Source: Alphaproteobacteria bacterium (GTDB taxonomy: Bacteria; Planctomycetota; Phycisphaerae; UBA1845). Taken from it: a DNA stretch of 64,000 nucleotides. The stretch spans positions 310,001 through 374,000 of the forward strand of contig JANQQE010000024.1 in NCBI GenBank assembly GCA_028285105.1. The letters are read 5' to 3'. Positions 35,263 to 54,180 of this stretch are shown in pieces. Made by a program: the position numbers and the translations under genes. The notes under the pieces are model-generated. The model was not told the origin of the DNA. It worked only from the letters and a program-made list of their open reading frames with translations, and searched no databases. Positions within the stretch are counted from its first letter, which is position 1, and every line of letters starts with the position of its first letter.

Positions 35263-35716
35263 CGAACCGTTGATCACCCTGCTGTTCATCATTGCGCCAC
35301 TGGGACTTGGATATGGGATCGGTCGATGGCGTGAGCACAGCCACCTCGCATCGCTCGAACAACGTGAACGTCAGAACCGCGACATCGTCGTGACGAATCT
35401 CAAGATCGGCCCTCATCCGGAAGCTGTTAAGGTAGCCAGTTATGTTTCAGGCGATGCAGTCATTGCAACGGACTACTTCAAGACCTTCGCCGCAGCGATT
35501 CGCCGAATCATCGGGGGAGAAATGCGCAGCTACGAAACGCTGATGAACCGTGCCCGACGCGAAGCAACGCTGCGCATGCTCGATCAAGCCAGGCAATTGG
35601 GCGCGACCGAAGTCTGGAACGTTCGTCTCGAAACGTCCAACGTTCTCAGCGCCACCAGCAACAACAAAGCCGCCAGCGTCGAAGTCTTCGCATTCGGTAC
35701 TGCGATCGTTCGATGA
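35255..35716 (+). CDS. Membrane-tethered YbjQ-like protein
   Basis: A 153-residue protein. A hydrophobic N-terminal helix (about 5-24, LITLLFIIAPLGLGYGIG) and a basic/acidic linker precede a YbjQ-like domain (about 43-153) with GGEMRSYETLMNRARREATL, QLGATEVWNVRLETS and VEVFAFGTAI. So it is a paralogue of the preceding gene attached to the membrane. It overlaps the gene before it by eight bases and the gene after it by four (ATGA). Co-production in fixed ratio is likely, perhaps as a mixed YbjQ ring at the membrane; that is inference. Confidence 0.85.
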   Translation: MFSEPLITLLFIIAPLGLGYGIGRWREHSHLASLEQRERQNRDIVVTNLKIGPHPEAVKVASYVSGDAVIATDYFKTFAAAIRRIIGGEMRSYETLMNRARREATLRMLDQARQLGATEVWNVRLETSNVLSATSNNKAASVEVFAFGTAIVR

Positions 35717-36525
35717 GCGACGAAGGCGTCCGACCCCATTCGCCCAGGCAGCACCCATCGAAGACCTATTCATCCGGCCAAAACATCTTCGACGAACCGG
35801 ACATTTTTCCCGGTCGCGCCGGACAAATCGTCGATAGCGACTGGTCGTGCGAACACTGCGGTGCGAACCTGCGCGGATTGCCGCTGGAAACGCCTTGTCG
35901 CGAGTGCGGCAAGCGGAACTGGTATCGCCCCCCACCTGCCGACTCAAACAGTTACCAATCCTGGCTGACGGAAAGAATTGCGGAAACGCAGATCGGTACG
36001 GGCGTCGCCACGGCGATCGGATGCGCCATCGCGGGCGGTTTGTTTGCGGTCGCCAGTTCGTTGTTGGGGACGAGTCCCGGCGGTTTCATGGGGACGAACC
36101 TACCGCTGCTCGCAATCGTGTTCGGGCCGATTGTCGAGGAGACACTGAAAGTTGCCGCCGCATCCTATGTGGTCGAGGTGAAACCGTATCTTTTTAAGAG
36201 GCGATCGCAGATCTACTTTGCCGCGATCGGGGCAGCCGTCGTCTTCGCCGCATTGGAAAACATACTGTACATCTTTGTATATCTGAATAACCCAAGCGAG
36301 AAAATCATCTTGTTACGCTGGACCGTTTGCGTCGCGCTGCATGTCGGTTGCACGTCGATTGTCGCAATCGGACTCGCGAATATCTGGATGCGGGCGATGG
36401 GCGAATTCCGCCAACCGCGCATCAACGACCTGTTCCCCGCGCTGGTCACCGCGATTGTCATTCACGGAACGTACAATGCAGGAATGATCGGCTTGGAGCG
36501 ATTGTATCCCTGGATTTTCAAATGA
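35713..36525 (+). CDS. PrsW-type intramembrane protease with N-terminal zinc ribbon
   Basis: A 270-residue membrane protein. A C4 zinc ribbon (about 45-66, CEHCGANLRG...CRECG) is followed by about six helices with the PrsW / CPBP-like signature: the Glu pair in VEETLK (about 142), AALENILYI (about 181), a His in LHVGCTS (about 210) and HGTYN (about 251). In B. subtilis PrsW makes the first cut in the anti-sigma factor RsiW. The likely active-site residues are intact. It is coupled by ATGA overlap to a membrane-bound YbjQ protein, which makes that protein a possible substrate or regulator. An ECF sigma and anti-sigma pair exists at 51779-53041 in the same window. Confidence 0.88.
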   Translation: MSDEGVRPHSPRQHPSKTYSSGQNIFDEPDIFPGRAGQIVDSDWSCEHCGANLRGLPLETPCRECGKRNWYRPPPADSNSYQSWLTERIAETQIGTGVATAIGCAIAGGLFAVASSLLGTSPGGFMGTNLPLLAIVFGPIVEETLKVAAASYVVEVKPYLFKRRSQIYFAAIGAAVVFAALENILYIFVYLNNPSEKIILLRWTVCVALHVGCTSIVAIGLANIWMRAMGEFRQPRINDLFPALVTAIVIHGTYNAGMIGLERLYPWIFK

Positions 36526-47730: not shown

Positions 47731-49419
47731 TCAGTCGCCCAGGCGATCTTTGGGTTCGCCGCCCATCGCTCGGATGGTGGCTTCAAGGATGCGGCGGGCA
47801 GGCGGCATGTCGCATTTGAATTCGGCATCGATGAGGGTTGGCAGGTCGGTCTTGATCGCAACCTTCGACACGGCGCTGGCGGCTCGGACCTGCACTTGTT
47901 CGTTGGTGTCGTTTTCGATTAATTCCAGCAATTTGCTCAGCAACCGTTTGTGTTTGGAATCGTCCGGGTTCGCATTGGATTCAGCCGCCATGCAGGCTCG
48001 GATGCGTACGTTGCGATCTTCGTCGTCGAGCAGTTGCACCAGCAGCGCGGCATCTGCATTCGGTTCGCGGCGCTCAGCCAACCCATACGTCGCCCATGCG
48101 CGGACCGTGGCATCCTTGTCGCGGGTCAATTCGATCACCCGATCGCCATGCTGCGGTTTCTTGCCAAACGCCACCGCAAAAACTGCCATCGCCCGGATGT
48201 TCGCCTCTTGGGACCGAGTCAATCGCATCAGCGCCTCGTGATTGGACTCCATCAATTCGCGATAGGTCGAACGCACGGGCTCAAGCTTTTCCACTTCGTT
48301 GCGATGTGCAACTCCCTGCCAACGTCTTACCAAGGCGACGAGCATTTCCAGAACCTGATTGTCGTCGAGTTCATTGATCGTGCGCTCTTCCAACTCCGCT
48401 CGTTCGAGAATGTCTTCGGCAACGGGCAACCAGAGGCTCTTGGGGTTGTCGAGAATGAAGCTGCGGATTTTGTCCTTGGCGTCTTCGGTGCCGAATTGCA
48501 ATGCTTCGCGAGCCATGTTGCTGAGCGGTTGGATCTGGCCAGCGGCCTTATCCAGCGCTTCGCCGCGCAGTCGACTACGCTCTGCAATCTCAATTTTCAC
48601 ATCGAAAGACAACTCACGCCGTTCGTGCGGTGGTCCGTATTCCAACACGACTTGCGATTCGACCGACTGCAAACTTCGCTTCGACACCAACCAGCGCCAA
48701 TCGCCTCGCGCGACTTTGATGTTGGCCACACCGTCGTACTCGCCGGCCAGCTTGCCTTCAAACTGAAACGACCCGACGGCTTGACGCTGGGCCCGCGCAC
48801 CATCCGTGCGGACATATCGGTGCGTCCATGCCCCCGCAAGTTCAGGGCGCTTGGACTCCGTCTGCCATTCGCTGTCGGGCGTAACGATGTCATCTGGCCA
48901 GTGTGCGAAGTCGAGCGCCAAAAGCATCGCAGCCCGCTGCACTCGCGAACCGCCGACAGCAGACGCATCGGCATTTTGATGGTCGATTTCGCCAACGTGA
49001 AGTTGAATTGACCTCGGTGGTAAACCCACCATTTTCGGATGCGGAATGTCGGCAACGGGCTCGCCACCGCGCGTGTACGAAGTGATGACCGGATCATCGA
49101 GTTGCATCATCCACGCTCGCGGCGCGTTTCTGGGTCGCGGTACGGAGGTCGGCAGTACCAGCAACCGCAATCGCCCGCTTTGCTCGAACGCGATCTCTTC
49201 ATCGTGTCGGCGTTGAGGCGTTCGTCGCACACCCTTGACGACCACGTCGTACTGCGCGTACGCACCGGGCGAAAGGTCATTTCGCAATCGCACGTGCCCG
49301 CTGTGGGCGTTCGCTTCATTCACTCCAGTGAACAGCTGAGAACGAGGAATGAGAATGGTCACCGCGACGGCAAGCATCGCAGGCGCAGTCAGATTCGGTT
49401 TACGTCGCTTCCGCATCAT
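47731..49419 (-). CDS. Exported HEAT-repeat protein of unknown function
   Basis: A 562-residue protein. A hydrophobic export helix (about 8-28) is followed by a beta-rich region (about 40-290) that I do not recognise. A helical C-terminal part (about 300-550) contains HEAT-like repeats, for example NIRAMAVFAVAF, ATVRAWATYGLAE, NVRIRACMAAES and VQVRAASAVSKVA at intervals of about 35 residues. HEAT arrays usually bind proteins. The start is the first of two adjacent ATG codons (49419) and overlaps the end of lgt by 20 bases, so the two are probably one operon. Confidence 0.8.
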   Translation of the reverse strand: MMRKRRKPNLTAPAMLAVAVTILIPRSQLFTGVNEANAHSGHVRLRNDLSPGAYAQYDVVVKGVRRTPQRRHDEEIAFEQSGRLRLLVLPTSVPRPRNAPRAWMMQLDDPVITSYTRGGEPVADIPHPKMVGLPPRSIQLHVGEIDHQNADASAVGGSRVQRAAMLLALDFAHWPDDIVTPDSEWQTESKRPELAGAWTHRYVRTDGARAQRQAVGSFQFEGKLAGEYDGVANIKVARGDWRWLVSKRSLQSVESQVVLEYGPPHERRELSFDVKIEIAERSRLRGEALDKAAGQIQPLSNMAREALQFGTEDAKDKIRSFILDNPKSLWLPVAEDILERAELEERTINELDDNQVLEMLVALVRRWQGVAHRNEVEKLEPVRSTYRELMESNHEALMRLTRSQEANIRAMAVFAVAFGKKPQHGDRVIELTRDKDATVRAWATYGLAERREPNADAALLVQLLDDEDRNVRIRACMAAESNANPDDSKHKRLLSKLLELIENDTNEQVQVRAASAVSKVAIKTDLPTLIDAEFKCDMPPARRILEATIRAMGGEPKDRLGD

Positions 49420-50614
49420 CGGATTCAAGCGGTGGAGGGACAAAGGGAACAGCTTTTGGCGAGCGAACCGGCGATTTGTAGATGTAAATCATGTACGCCA
49501 CGCCAAAGAGAAACATCGCCACGCTGACGGCCTGCGAAATCGTCAAACCGGCGGAGTCGTGCGGGTTGTCCACACGAACGTATTCGAGAAGGATGCGCGT
49601 GATTGGATAGATCATGATCATCGTACCAAACACAACGCCATGTCGCTTGCGATGGTTGGCGATTTCCAGGAGCAACCAGCTTAACAGGAACGCATTGATA
49701 ACAGCATAAACCTGCGCCGGATGCACTGGGACAGACCGATGCTGGTGGGCCAAGTCTCCCAATTCGGAAACCGTGATGGGTCGCTCCGTATCGTTGCGTG
49801 ATGGGAAGCGCGTTTGCTTGACGAGTGCGCCCAGGCGACCGGCTTCGCGCTTGTACTTTCGCGCGGTTTCCTCAAGCTCCTTTTCCATCGCGACGATTTT
49901 CTTTTCTTCGACGCCGAGGGCTTTGGCTTCTTTGATGTCGCGTTCCAACTGGCGAGCTTCCGCCAACGTGCCAGCCCGTTCTTCCGGTGGCATGTCGATC
50001 AAGGTGCGCGGTAGCAAGTATGGCTGGGGCGTGCCCCCCGGAACGCTGACGATCAACTCAGCCGGTAAAGTCGTTTGGCGATTTTCCCACTGACGAACCT
50101 CGGCTGGACTGCCGTACGGAAAGGTAATTCCCCAAGGGACGGTCGCTTGTCCATTGGGCGCGACACAAATCCCGCCCCAGCAACAACCGTTCAATAGGCA
50201 TCCAATGCGCCCAAACGCCAAACCCCATGCCGCACCGGGGAAAAGAATATCCAAATACATTCGCACCGACACGCGCTTCAACGCCAGATACGTCACCGTA
50301 CCGATCGCCGCGCAAATCAACCCGCCATAGTACTCAAGCCCGCCACTGGTCATATTGAGTGCGGCAAGTAACGGGTTCTCCTGGGTCGCGAAACTCGTTT
50401 CCCAGTAGTGGATCACGAAAAACAACCGCCCCCCGCCAACCCCGCAGAGCAGCGAAACGAATCCGACGTTCAAGACAATGTCCGGGTCGGCTTTGACGTG
50501 TTCTGCGCGTCGCATGCACAACCACACGCCAGTCAAAAAACCCAGCGTGAGCATCGCCCCGTAACTTTTGACGGGCATATCGAGAAACGGAATGGTGAAT
50601 AATTCTGGGTACAT
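49400..50614 (-). CDS. lgt: Prolipoprotein diacylglyceryl transferase with large insert
   Basis: Membrane enzyme that adds diacylglycerol to the lipobox cysteine of prelipoproteins (ModA at 10228 and the lipoprotein at 60610 are likely clients). The 404-residue protein keeps the family signature GRIGCLLNGCCWGG and HPAQVYAVINAF with several helices. It is over 100 residues longer than usual members because of a charged insert (about 185-310, LAEARQLERDIKEAKALG and onward) with coiled-coil character, between the signature and the last helices. The ATG at 50614 (MYPELFTIPFLD) is the family start; the frame upstream runs into a hairpin repeat. Confidence 0.93.
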   Translation of the reverse strand: MYPELFTIPFLDMPVKSYGAMLTLGFLTGVWLCMRRAEHVKADPDIVLNVGFVSLLCGVGGGRLFFVIHYWETSFATQENPLLAALNMTSGGLEYYGGLICAAIGTVTYLALKRVSVRMYLDILFPGAAWGLAFGRIGCLLNGCCWGGICVAPNGQATVPWGITFPYGSPAEVRQWENRQTTLPAELIVSVPGGTPQPYLLPRTLIDMPPEERAGTLAEARQLERDIKEAKALGVEEKKIVAMEKELEETARKYKREAGRLGALVKQTRFPSRNDTERPITVSELGDLAHQHRSVPVHPAQVYAVINAFLLSWLLLEIANHRKRHGVVFGTMIMIYPITRILLEYVRVDNPHDSAGLTISQAVSVAMFLFGVAYMIYIYKSPVRSPKAVPFVPPPLESDDAEAT

Positions 50615-50627
50615 GCAATCGGTTTGC

Positions 50628-50692
50628 GTAGGGTGGGCCATGCCCACCGTCGTTTGAATGTTTTACGAAATGGTGGGCACGGCCCACCCTAC
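50628..50692. repeat. REP-like inverted repeat, family B
   Basis: GTAGGGTGGGCCATGCCCACC (first 21 bases) pairs with a matching arm ending ACCCTAC at 50692, around a loop of about 23 bases. It shares the GTAGGGT...ACCCTAC ends with the two family A elements (166-232 and 15129-15188), but the inner stem differs. It lies between panC and lgt, just before the lgt start. Confidence 0.8.
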
Positions 50693-50737
50693 GAACTTTC
50701 GTTGTCGATCATTATTCGCCGCATCCTAGCGGGCGGT

Positions 50738-51592
50738 TTACATTGCGTCTACTGCTACGTTGTCAATCAATCGGGTTTCGCCGATGTGGACGGCAACGCA
50801 GATTCGCGCGGGTCTGTCGATTTCGGTCAAAGATTCCAGATTCGCTGCGTCGACAATTTCGACATAATCGATGCGGGCCTGTCCGCTTGTTTCGAGATGG
50901 TGACGAATTCGCGCGGACAACTCGCTGATATTTCGCTGGCCGGCATGCACAAACTCGACGGCTGACGTCAGACTTTCGTAAATTCCTGCCGCCGCTTTTC
51001 GCTGATCGGGCGAGAGAAACCGATTGCGGCTGGAAATCGCCAACCCATCGCGTTCTCGAAGCGTTGCACACGCCACGATCTCCACCGGGATCGACAGGTC
51101 AGCCACCATCCGCCGCACGATCAAAAGCTGTTGATAGTCCTTCTCGCCGAAATACGCACGGTCCGGTCCGACGATGCCGAAGAGCTTTGCCACCACCGTA
51201 CACACGCCGTCGAAATGATTCGCCCGCGATCGCCCGCAGAGATGTTCCGACAAATCGGAGACACGTACGCCGGTCTTAAACGATTGGCCGTCACCGTACA
51301 TTTCCGACACGGTTGGGCAGAATGCAAGGTCAACCCCGCGCTCATCGCAACCAGCCAGGTCGGCATCGAGCGTTGCGGGGTAGAGATCGAGGTCTTCGCC
51401 TTTTCCGAACTGAAGCGGGTTGACGAAAATGCTGACAACGACGACATCGCACTCTGCCCGCGCACGTTCGATCAGCGACCAGTGGCCGGCATGCAGCGCC
51501 CCCATCGTCGGCACAAATCCGATCGACCGCCCAGCCCGTCTCATTGGGTCCAGGAACCCGCGAACACCTTCAATCGTTTCGATCGTCGTCAT
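50738..51592 (-). CDS. panC: Pantothenate synthetase
   Basis: Joins pantoate and beta-alanine with ATP to form pantothenate, the precursor of coenzyme A. The 284-residue protein has the nucleotidyl-transferase start FVPTMGALHAGHWSLI with the HxGH site, SIFVNPLQFGKGEDLDLYP, and the KMSKS-like region around AISSRNRFLSPDQR. Nothing is unusual. It is divergent from the ECF sigma gene and followed by the hairpin repeat before lgt. Confidence 0.96.
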   Translation of the reverse strand: MTTIETIEGVRGFLDPMRRAGRSIGFVPTMGALHAGHWSLIERARAECDVVVVSIFVNPLQFGKGEDLDLYPATLDADLAGCDERGVDLAFCPTVSEMYGDGQSFKTGVRVSDLSEHLCGRSRANHFDGVCTVVAKLFGIVGPDRAYFGEKDYQQLLIVRRMVADLSIPVEIVACATLRERDGLAISSRNRFLSPDQRKAAAGIYESLTSAVEFVHAGQRNISELSARIRHHLETSGQARIDYVEIVDAANLESLTEIDRPARICVAVHIGETRLIDNVAVDAM

Positions 51593-51778: not shown

Positions 51779-52456
51779 TTGAAACTAACCCATCCGCGTT
51801 GGCAGGTGTCTGCACTGTTGGAAGAATCAAAAAGCGACAACTTGCCCGATTCCAAGGATCACTCGGCATCGACTGACTCCGCCGTACAGGATGCCCAATG
51901 GGTTATCGCGACTCGATCCGGCGATCCTGGGGCATACGACAAGTTGGTGGAGCGGCACAGACGCCAAGCCGTCTCGATCGCTTATCGACTTTTGAACCGA
52001 ATCGAGGACGCCTCGGATGTTGCTCAAGATGCCTTCGTTCGGGCGTTTCAGAATCTGGAGAAGCTCGACGATCCCGGCAAGTTCGCCGGGTGGCTGATGC
52101 GGATCGTGACGAACCTGTCGCTAAACTTCCGCCGCTCGCGGGCAAGGCATCAGATGGCCACTGTCGATGAGACGATCAAGTTTGACGCCAATCCGCGGAA
52201 TCCGACTGGGGCGAAATTGGTTGCAGCAGCCGTCGACGATGCGTTCGCGAAGAAGGAAATGAAACGAGTCGTGCGTGAAGCGATCGACAGCCTGCCTGAA
52301 AAGCAGCGCACCGCTCTGAAGCTTTTTGCACTGGAAGGCATGTCGCAGAAGGACGTGGCAAAGATCATGGAGTGTTCGCTTGAACTGGTGAAGTGGAACG
52401 TATTCCAGGCGCGAAAGAATCTGCGGACGATGCTGGCTGGCTATGTTGAAGAATGA
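51779..52456 (+). CDS. ECF-type RNA polymerase sigma factor
   Basis: A 225-residue sigma factor. Region 2 is at about 45-115 (YDKLVERHRRQAVSIAYRLL, DVAQDAFVRAFQNL, FAGWLMRIVTNLSLNFRR) and region 4 at about 155-220 (AIDSLPEKQRTALKLFALEG with helix-turn-helix). It would direct polymerase to its own set of promoters when released from its inhibitor. The start is TTG at 51779; the next in-frame Met lies inside region 2-4, so there is no better choice. It is directly followed by a membrane anti-sigma-like gene and a double-STN gene. Confidence 0.92.
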   Translation: MKLTHPRWQVSALLEESKSDNLPDSKDHSASTDSAVQDAQWVIATRSGDPGAYDKLVERHRRQAVSIAYRLLNRIEDASDVAQDAFVRAFQNLEKLDDPGKFAGWLMRIVTNLSLNFRRSRARHQMATVDETIKFDANPRNPTGAKLVAAAVDDAFAKKEMKRVVREAIDSLPEKQRTALKLFALEGMSQKDVAKIMECSLELVKWNVFQARKNLRTMLAGYVEE

Positions 52457-52483
52457 TTGAAGAAGTTATTGATTAAAGAACTT

Positions 52484-53041
52484 ATGTACTCGCCAGACAA
52501 CCAACCCAACGAAGAGACGATCCGCCGGTTGAGCGAATACGTAGACGGTACGCTCGAACCCAAGGCAGCCGTCGAGTTAATACAGCGCGTGGCGACGAAC
52601 CGGGCACTGCAAAAGGAACTCGAAGCGCTGCGGTCAGCCGATGCCTTGATCAAAGCGCATCGAGACGAGGTGCCCGAGATCGATTGGGATGCGTTTTCCA
52701 ATTCCGTCCGAATTCGAATCGAGAAGACTTCGAAAAGCACGCCGCGCACTCTAGTATTCCCACTGTGGCGACCATTGGCGGCAGCGGCTGCCTTGGCGCT
52801 GTCAGTCACTGCATTTCTGATCGTCGAGCGGAACCCGACGACACCTCAACCGCTGGTCTCCGCCGCCCACATAGACGTATCAGTCGAAGGACCGACAAAC
52901 GGCCCGTCCGATGCCGCACGGGGAAAAGTCATCGCTTCGGTATCGCGCCAGCGCCCAGACGGCATGATCGGTTTCGACGCCGATTTCGTAGGCCCACCGT
53001 ATTTTGAACGATCGATATTGGTCGCCACTGGAGTGAACTGA
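52484..53041 (+). CDS. Putative transmembrane anti-sigma factor
   Basis: A 185-residue protein with a cytoplasmic N-terminal helical part (about 1-85), one membrane helix (about 93-113) and an outer tail of about 70 residues. The start of the domain (NEETIRRLSEYVDGTLEPKA) resembles the anti-sigma domain that wraps region 2 and 4, but the zinc-binding HxxxCxxC residues are missing. Position right after the sigma gene supports the role. TTG at 52457 is an alternative start that would directly follow the sigma stop. Its own TGA overlaps the next ATG (TGATG). Function is inferred. Confidence 0.75.
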   Translation: MYSPDNQPNEETIRRLSEYVDGTLEPKAAVELIQRVATNRALQKELEALRSADALIKAHRDEVPEIDWDAFSNSVRIRIEKTSKSTPRTLVFPLWRPLAAAAALALSVTAFLIVERNPTTPQPLVSAAHIDVSVEGPTNGPSDAARGKVIASVSRQRPDGMIGFDADFVGPPYFERSILVATGVN

Positions 53042-54180
53042 TGAATCTCTTTGCAAGCACGAAGCAATGCATCGCCGCCGGATTATTCTTGGTGCTGATT
53101 TCTACAAACACAGATGCTCTAGCTGCGGATACCACCGTCGCTGAACGACTCGACGCGGAACTGACCATTCGCCTTGAGGGCTTGCCGGTAAAGGACGCTC
53201 TAGGACAACTCGCAGCCAGCACTGACGTGAAGTTCTTCACGGTCGAAAAACCATTCGACGCCCTGCCCTATGGAGAGAACACAAAAGTCTCGATCGTCCT
53301 CGAAGTCGCCACTGTCCGGATGGGGTTGGAAGCGATCTGCAACCAACTCGCCATGAACTTCGTTACCGACAACGATGGTGTGACGGTCATGCCGTCGCAG
53401 GCACTTCTTAGGATCGAACGTACCGCAACCTGGGATGAATTGGACACGCTCGCGCAACTGCGCACATCGCATTGGCCAGACGCCGACGCAATCAAGCGCA
53501 TCGTCGCCAACCGATTGCGATTTGCAGGAATCAAAGGCGACTTCGAATCCAACTGGAACAAACTGCAATCCGCGATCAACCCGAATCGCGAGAGCCCAAT
53601 CGATGACGCCCTCACCGAAGGTTGCGAAGCACTCGATTGGACATGGTTTCCGATGAAAAAACAGATTGTTGTGCTGCCCAAGAAAGACCAGATCGCTCGA
53701 CAGCTCGAACGAATTGTCTCGGTCAAACATTACGGCGTACCGTTTCGCAATGTTCTGGAAGATCTTGCTCGATTGGCTGGTGTCGGAATAGAGATTCAAA
53801 GAGACGCCAATGTTTCCATTCCGGATGCACGCAATAATGAAAACTTCACTCTGGTCGCGGAGGGCATCAGCGTTCGCGAAGCACTCATGCAACTCATGAT
53901 GACCGCCGAACTCGATCACGTAATTGAGATTCGTGACGACAAGGTGGTTCTCGTCCACAGCGATCGCGCGGGCCCACCAGCTCGATGGCGACGTCGCAAC
54001 GATCCCATCGTCGGCGCCGTTCACGTTCCGGGTCAGGACGGCACGTTTACCTACGATTGGTTCATTCGCGAGTCCGACTTGACGCTCGAAGAAAACATCA
54101 AGCGCGAGATGCAGGTCAAAGAGGCGATCGAAGCAATGAAGAAGGATTTGGCCAAGATCAGCTTGCCAGAGGATGAGTAG
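53041..54180 (+). CDS. Exported protein with two STN-like domains
   Basis: A 379-residue protein with signal peptide (QCIAAGLFLVLISTNTDALA, cleavage near residue 29). Two regions, about 35-125 (LTIRLEGLPVKDALGQLA) and about 228-305 (YGVPFRNVLEDLARLAGVGI), have the beta-alpha-beta pattern of the short N-terminal domain of secretins and TonB-dependent receptors (STN). In FecA-type signalling the STN domain contacts a membrane anti-sigma regulator. No secretin or barrel domain follows. The C-terminus is charged and helical. It is coupled to the anti-sigma gene by TGATG, so it may set that inhibitor's activity from outside. Confidence 0.75.
   Translation: MNLFASTKQCIAAGLFLVLISTNTDALAADTTVAERLDAELTIRLEGLPVKDALGQLAASTDVKFFTVEKPFDALPYGENTKVSIVLEVATVRMGLEAICNQLAMNFVTDNDGVTVMPSQALLRIERTATWDELDTLAQLRTSHWPDADAIKRIVANRLRFAGIKGDFESNWNKLQSAINPNRESPIDDALTEGCEALDWTWFPMKKQIVVLPKKDQIARQLERIVSVKHYGVPFRNVLEDLARLAGVGIEIQRDANVSIPDARNNENFTLVAEGISVREALMQLMMTAELDHVIEIRDDKVVLVHSDRAGPPARWRRRNDPIVGAVHVPGQDGTFTYDWFIRESDLTLEENIKREMQVKEAIEAMKKDLAKISLPEDE

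Follow-up and report, generated by a model that had tools for sequence, protein, structure and literature searches.

A conserved three-gene operon of Phycisphaerae as a candidate tripartite envelope-stress switch with an STN-fold protein in the place of RseB

Three tightly packed genes on the plus strand, encoding an ECF sigma factor, a one-helix anti-sigma factor and an exported STN-repeat protein (STN3), were found in the analysed stretch of 64,000 nt, which we call the window (for coordinates see Table 1). We propose that this trio is probably a tripartite envelope-stress switch of the little-studied Phycisphaerae which is built like RpoE-RseA-RseB and in which a guard of STN fold replaces RseB. 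The proposal starts from what can be read in the sequence, namely the operon and its domains, a promoter shared with relatives, and exported-protein genes located behind further copies of this promoter.

The initial annotation had placed an ECF sigma factor, a membrane inhibitor and an exported STN protein in one operon, and all three genes were confirmed on the same strand. The stop codon TGA of the ECF gene ends at position 52456, and the anti-sigma gene, with its TGA at 53039-53041, shares one nucleotide with the start codon ATG of the third (53041-53043). The ECF protein matches the Pfam families sigma70 r2 (E 2e-19) and r4_2 (E 3e-13). Its start had been set at 51779; since the conserved promoter at 51785-51811 would then fall inside the gene, translation probably starts at TTG 51818, a codon shared by all 4 of the genus members that were compared, or later. 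For the anti-sigma factor, ATG 52484 is a more likely start than the TTG 52457 that opens the ORF. The divergent neighbourhood on the minus strand (47731-51592) encodes a HEAT-repeat protein, Lgt and PanC and is a conserved neighbour of the trio in many relatives, with PanC present in 24 of 40 family loci.

Table 1. Features of the operon and its divergent neighbour (positions in the window)
Feature	Position	Strand	Basis
panC, divergent neighbour, outside the switch	50738..51592	-	PF02569, E 1.8e-105
Predicted self-regulated ECF-type promoter	51783..51812	+	-35 CTAAC 51785-51789, -10 GTGTCT 51806-51811
ECF sigma factor	51818..52456	+	TTG 51818 start or later; Pfam sigma70 r2/r4_2; TIGR02937 above cut-off
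Anti-sigma factor, one-helix, zinc-motif-free	52484..53041	+	ATG 52484; ORF opens TTG 52457; family alignment A2, AF2
Four-helix anti-sigma domain	52511..52732	+	AF2 helices 19-92; best structural rows RsiW, RslA, SigK anti-sigma, ChrR
Transmembrane helix of anti-sigma factor	52766..52825	+	AF2 helix 104-123; conserved PLAAAA core
Predicted periplasmic beta hairpin, anti-sigma tail	52865..52948	+	AF2 strands 137-144, 157-164; pLDDT about 60-68
Exported STN-repeat protein STN3, 379 aa	53041..54180	+	Homologues, AF2, structure match, Pfam STN in 36/40 family members
STN domain 1	53134..53400	+	VIA-align Z 10.5 to 4m0n (residues 41-118)
Middle module, possibly degenerate STN	53401..53688	+	AF2 helix-rich with beta pair; hhalign 34 % to domain 1, 30 columns
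STN domain 2 (third module)	53689..53970	+	hhalign to domain 1 99.1 %, 85 columns; Pfam STN within 257-304, several homologues
C-terminal strand pair and helix, conserved SELPPDLR-like motif	53971..54177	+	Alignment A1, AF2

The promoter pattern shared by the regions upstream of the ECF genes is CTAAC-N15/16-GTGTCTR. An unbiased two-box count returned CTAAC-N16-TGTC in 37 of 69 such regions, whereas the best of three shuffles reached 7. The strict pattern is present in 50 of the 69, and when a wider range was searched, 14 of the 19 remaining regions scored 10 or more. In the window, 51785-51811 is the only exact match (0.03 expected). Since this shared promoter precedes the ECF gene, the operon is probably self-regulated. 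A sigma70-like TTGACA-N17-TATCGT was also seen by eye just upstream of the ECF gene. Further, the one-contig genome G002 harbours a second ECF/PanC/Lgt locus (L181, G002:C1:3603167), which contains a run of N, lies 2.7 Mb from the trio and has a promoter almost identical to that in G003; it is a possible misassembly or duplication.

The anti-sigma factor had been described as zinc-less and one-helix, and this description held: the Hx3Cx2C zinc motif is present in 0 of 73 homologues and the AF2 model contains one transmembrane helix. We rejected the missing zinc motif as a special trait, because, among the anti-sigma domains of class I, about 44 % likewise do without it according to PMC7406223. 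The four N-terminal helices are modelled with good confidence. Their structural matches (RsiW Z 6.2, RslA 5.6, SigK anti-sigma 5.1, ChrR 4.0) are too low to be relied on by themselves, the best profile matches in the PDB, RsiW, MucA and RseA, all have E values of at least 0.059, and the anti-sigma model NF052375 gives 29 bits for the window copy, which is under its cut-off. From these weak structural and profile scores together with the gene position, the protein is taken as class I-like. Pfam revealed no FecR match, and the tail of about 70 aa contains one predicted hairpin, which is of low confidence in the AF2 model. A hydrophobic C-terminal residue was found in 54 of 73 homologues (L 23, F 17, Y 9, others) compared to 46 of 150 neighbouring ECF and STN frames (P 1e-9, uncorrected for kinship); the anti-sigma factor of the window, which ends with GVN, is an exception. 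Many family anti-sigma factors (L030, L043, L046, L053 and similar ones; alignment A2 comprises the window and 36 loci) carry a second VDxLLxRWG-type helical segment before the transmembrane helix, suggesting that the cytoplasmic half was duplicated.

For the third protein, two STN-like domains and no receptor barrel had been proposed, and both the AF2 model and structure comparison give the STN fold. The model (mean pLDDT 85.8) comprises two beta-alpha-beta-beta-alpha-beta-beta units (residues 40-118 and 225-306), a helix-rich middle module and a C-terminal strand pair with a helix. In the structure comparison, residues 41-118 matched best 4m0n, a putative anti-sigma factor, in its STN part (Z 10.5, rmsd 1.6, 72 residues). 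Other matches of domain 1 are PupR (6ovk, Z 8.9), FpvA (2iah, Z 9.5), PilQ N0, DotD and XcpQ; this domain fills the match list, and other folds elsewhere in STN3 may be hidden. Pfam STN (PF07660) does not match the window copy and matches 36 of 40 aligned family members (best 2.1e-14), with the best stretch in the first repeat in some members and in the last in others. By profile comparison repeats 1 and 3 are homologous (hhalign probability 99.1 %), and the middle module (residues 121-216) is perhaps a degenerate third STN. The 379 aa contain STN modules only, with no barrel match in Pfam or in the AF2 model, and there is no RseB family among the Pfam or NCBIfam matches. The underlying alignment A1 excludes L070, for which an internal stop was reported in the match. 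Since STN3 is separate, exported and conserved next to the ECF/anti-sigma pair, a free periplasmic messenger or sensor, as proposed in the initial annotation, is the natural reading.

Based on the RpoE-RseA-RseB-like layout and on the precedents of FoxA, VreA and PupB, our preferred reading is that STN3 has the STN fold and acts as a guard in the manner of RseB. RseB is bound to RseA, and its departure has to precede the cut by DegS (PMC8103513). For FoxA, release of the STN domain by cleavage is proposed, and this domain shields FoxR against proteolysis (PMC11637429); the PupB domain binds the periplasmic part of PupR, which itself ends in an STN subdomain (PMC7186176). VreA of Pseudomonas aeruginosa is an exported STN protein that has no barrel, is mostly soluble and is paired with an ECF/anti-sigma system (PMC2729926); a periplasmic STN partner lacking a barrel had thus been described already, and the term undescribed, applied in the initial annotation to the signalling branch, is dropped here.

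In the mechanism that we infer, the class I-like anti-sigma factor would at rest tether the ECF factor to the inner membrane, and the exported STN3 would bind the short periplasmic hairpin or tail of the anti-sigma factor and keep proteases off. Upon a cue, such as misassembled envelope material or a ligand, STN3 would let go. The tail, once unguarded, would be cut, and the hydrophobic end found in most relatives would suit PDZ-type proteases. The freed ECF factor would then read the shared promoter and transcribe its own operon and exported-protein genes, such as those of an LPP20-family protein, of small lipoproteins and, in this genus, of a CarboxypepD_reg-like protein. It is tempting to speculate, although we regard this as doubtful, that the soluble STN-repeat protein, through strand addition, clamps a class I anti-sigma factor at its minimal hairpin tail and there covers a C-terminal residue recognized by PDZ proteases. 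The trio would then be a third, independently built periplasmic ECF control and, in large parts of Phycisphaerae, the principal sensor of envelope stress.

Alternatively, STN3 could act as an activator: once loaded with ligand, it would attach to the anti-sigma tail and set off its cleavage, in keeping with the older model of cell-surface signalling. The same anatomy and co-conservation would fit, and for a long time the inducing role was assigned to the STN domains of FecA-type receptors (PMC11637429). However, the recent FoxA/FoxR work reported there favours protection, and a self-regulated STN gene fits a guard with negative feedback. We therefore consider an activator unlikely. As for the protease, a PrsW-family intramembrane protease encoded at 35713-36525 on the plus strand (PF13367, E 2.8e-14) had been put forward as the releasing enzyme; the gene is real, but it is located about 15 kb from the trio, and we rejected the link as unsupported. 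By eye, the PrsW-family protein has a zinc-ribbon-like cysteine pair near its N-terminus.

The trio is widely conserved in parts of Phycisphaerae. The three genes, whose order in relatives had been suggested as a check, are neighbours in this order at 70 of 80 loci (37 of 40 in the family and 33 of 40 others, the latter being a selection picked from the order and class match lists). Four of the ten loci without the full trio are cut by contig ends, and the six real exceptions are all outside the family. In a protein search STN3 was found in 42 of 51 same-family genomes; the counts for order (92 of 114 genomes) and class (124 of 198) include weak single-domain matches in other proteins. In the phylum sample, the 3 matches among 294 at E<=1e-12 were the own genome, one classmate and a partial match in a 1103-aa frame. 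When a strong anti-sigma match (E<=1e-20) was considered together with STN3, 41 of the 51 family genomes had both and 7 neither; two had STN3 without such an anti-sigma factor (contig edges) and one the anti-sigma factor without STN3 (contig end).

The six exception loci carry STN3 without the ECF/anti-sigma pair, and in five of these genomes the pair is located elsewhere. The sixth, G125, yielded no anti-sigma factor at E<=1e-5, and in G134 the pair is present and STN3 is absent among the matches listed. At the best anti-sigma locus of five exception genomes and five others, the ECF gene adjoins the anti-sigma gene in 10 of 10 cases and STN3 is in the stretch in 0 of 10; therefore the operon is split in these genomes. 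The promoter is kept by 9 of the 10 split ECF genes (score >=11.6) and is absent upstream of the six lone STN3 genes (best score 9.3, others <=3.9). At the exception locus L169, STN3 is preceded on its own strand by a gene for a LuxR-type regulator (PF00196). The score of the anti-sigma tail against the family profile is lower where STN3 is not adjacent (medians 4.2 for non-family trio loci vs -0.4, P 0.004, uncorrected for phylogeny and with most of the ten split loci from few families), and that of the cytoplasmic domain is not (50.6 with the trio vs 62.9).

These data bear on the possibility that STN3 is an output and not a sensor, i.e. an envelope component such as a partner of a secretin, a pilus or another outer-membrane complex, with the anti-sigma factor sensing alone. 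In line with this, STN3 lies behind the sigma promoter as other exported targets do, it is encoded apart from the pair in some lineages, and STN domains are found in secretins and DotD. Nevertheless, STN3 adjoins the pair at most loci, the strong anti-sigma match is missing in 7 of 8 family genomes without STN3, and it is the tail whose score drops when STN3 is not adjacent, with the above restriction as to phylogeny. On balance an output role appears quite improbable to us. Returning to the guard model, the split or missing partners in some lineages, the lone STN3 genes without promoter, the non-hydrophobic tail end in the window and the low-confidence hairpin count against it.

To what extent the promoter marks further genes can be judged from the family genomes. 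We found 66 exact matches in 40 of 51 genomes compared to about 123 for a reversed control, so the pattern is rarer genome-wide, and only the position of the matches is enriched, not their number. ECF promoters of this type account for 34 of the 66. Among the 32 others, 13 precede the start of an exported protein by an automatic rule, against 866 of 21506 control positions (4 %; P 1e-10) and 74 of 2352 positions within the same loci. The families behind these matches are LPP20 in three genomes (PF02169 in both that were scanned), two lipoprotein families with two occurrences each (by eye), Gly/His-rich exported proteins, a DUF4097 protein and a DUF3352 protein. At L212 (G019:C381), a match lies 155 nt upstream of a gene for a LolD/MacB-like ABC ATPase (by eye).

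Of the 51 family genomes, 31 have LPP20, and the own genus is without it. The motif upstream of LPP20, which was scored in 30 of the 31, reached at least 12 in 16 of 30 (controls: 0 among 294 downstream windows, 0.6 % among 471 antisense windows) and at least 6 in 25 of 30 (controls 5-8 %). In G001, which has neither STN3 nor a strong anti-sigma match, the LPP20 gene still scores 13.6, and therefore another sigma factor may read such sites. The own genome (G000) contains three exact sites, two of which, besides the ECF promoter, lie inside long frames of other genes. A one-mismatch search led to the genus target, a CarboxypepD_reg-like exported protein (Pfam CarboxypepD_reg below cut-off; cupredoxin-like impression by eye). 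Its gene has the motif in 4 of 4 trio genomes (G000, G047, G049 and G050; scores 15.6-23.3) and a score of 0.8, i.e. none, in G048, a genus member without the trio. The joint absence of trio and motif, observed in this one genome, is suggestive of a target link. Overall, the motif precedes this gene in 4 of 30 family genomes and is absent from the others.

True cell-surface signalling, in which STN3 would pass on the signal of a distinct outer-membrane receptor, the role suggested for VreA (PMC2729926), has besides this precedent the STN fold common to FpvA and PupR and the FecR_C matches of 4 of 40 STN3 family members (Pfam) in its favour, but it is highly improbable given that the operon contains neither a FecR-type regulator nor a receptor gene and that no receptor gene was seen among the predicted targets, which are lipoproteins and LPP20-like proteins. 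The earlier assignment of the trio to a branch of FecIRA signalling did not survive the analysis: there is no FecR-type domain and no barrel, and the rpoE-rseA-rseB architecture is closer.

Planctomycetota harbour many ECF factors with few known inputs. The trio is an ECF system whose conserved partner has a known fold and for which a strong promoter and a small number of targets are predicted; no description of it was found in the open-access literature. New is the combination of a soluble STN-repeat partner, a class I-like anti-sigma factor, a defined promoter and exported-protein targets. Since the FoxA/FoxR work reopened the question of guard versus trigger for a free STN domain, the trio provides a system with a naturally free STN protein in which this question can be tested. 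If the more speculative reading of a clamp by strand addition is true, STN signalling can work without a receptor and without FecR.

In E. coli, the gene order rpoE-rseA-rseB also corresponds to sigma factor, anti-sigma factor and periplasmic protein, and AlgU-MucA-MucB is the counterpart of this system. RseB is not known to be an STN protein. The trio resembles RpoE-RseA-RseB in the order of sigma factor, one-helix anti-sigma factor and periplasmic protein, in the anti-sigma domains that match best by profile (RsiW, MucA and RseA, E>=0.059), in exported-protein targets and in self-regulation, which is here inferred from the promoter. It differs in its third component with two to three STN-like modules, in the CTAAC/GTGTCT promoter and in its other targets. 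With FecA/FecR, PupB/PupR and FoxA/FoxR the trio shares the STN fold and probably the principle of a periplasmic STN contact with the anti-sigma factor; unlike them it has no TonB-dependent receptor, and its anti-sigma tail is short and free of FecR-type domains. An exported, barrel-less STN protein with an ECF partner, a partnership suggested here by gene position, is common to the trio and VreA-VreI-VreR (PUMA3). However, VreR is of the cell-surface-signalling regulator type, and vreI pairs with vreA, vreR being apart. Further, STN3, whose C-terminal part is modelled by AF2 as two strands and a helix, has STN repeats, and VreA has one STN and a TolA/TonB-like domain.
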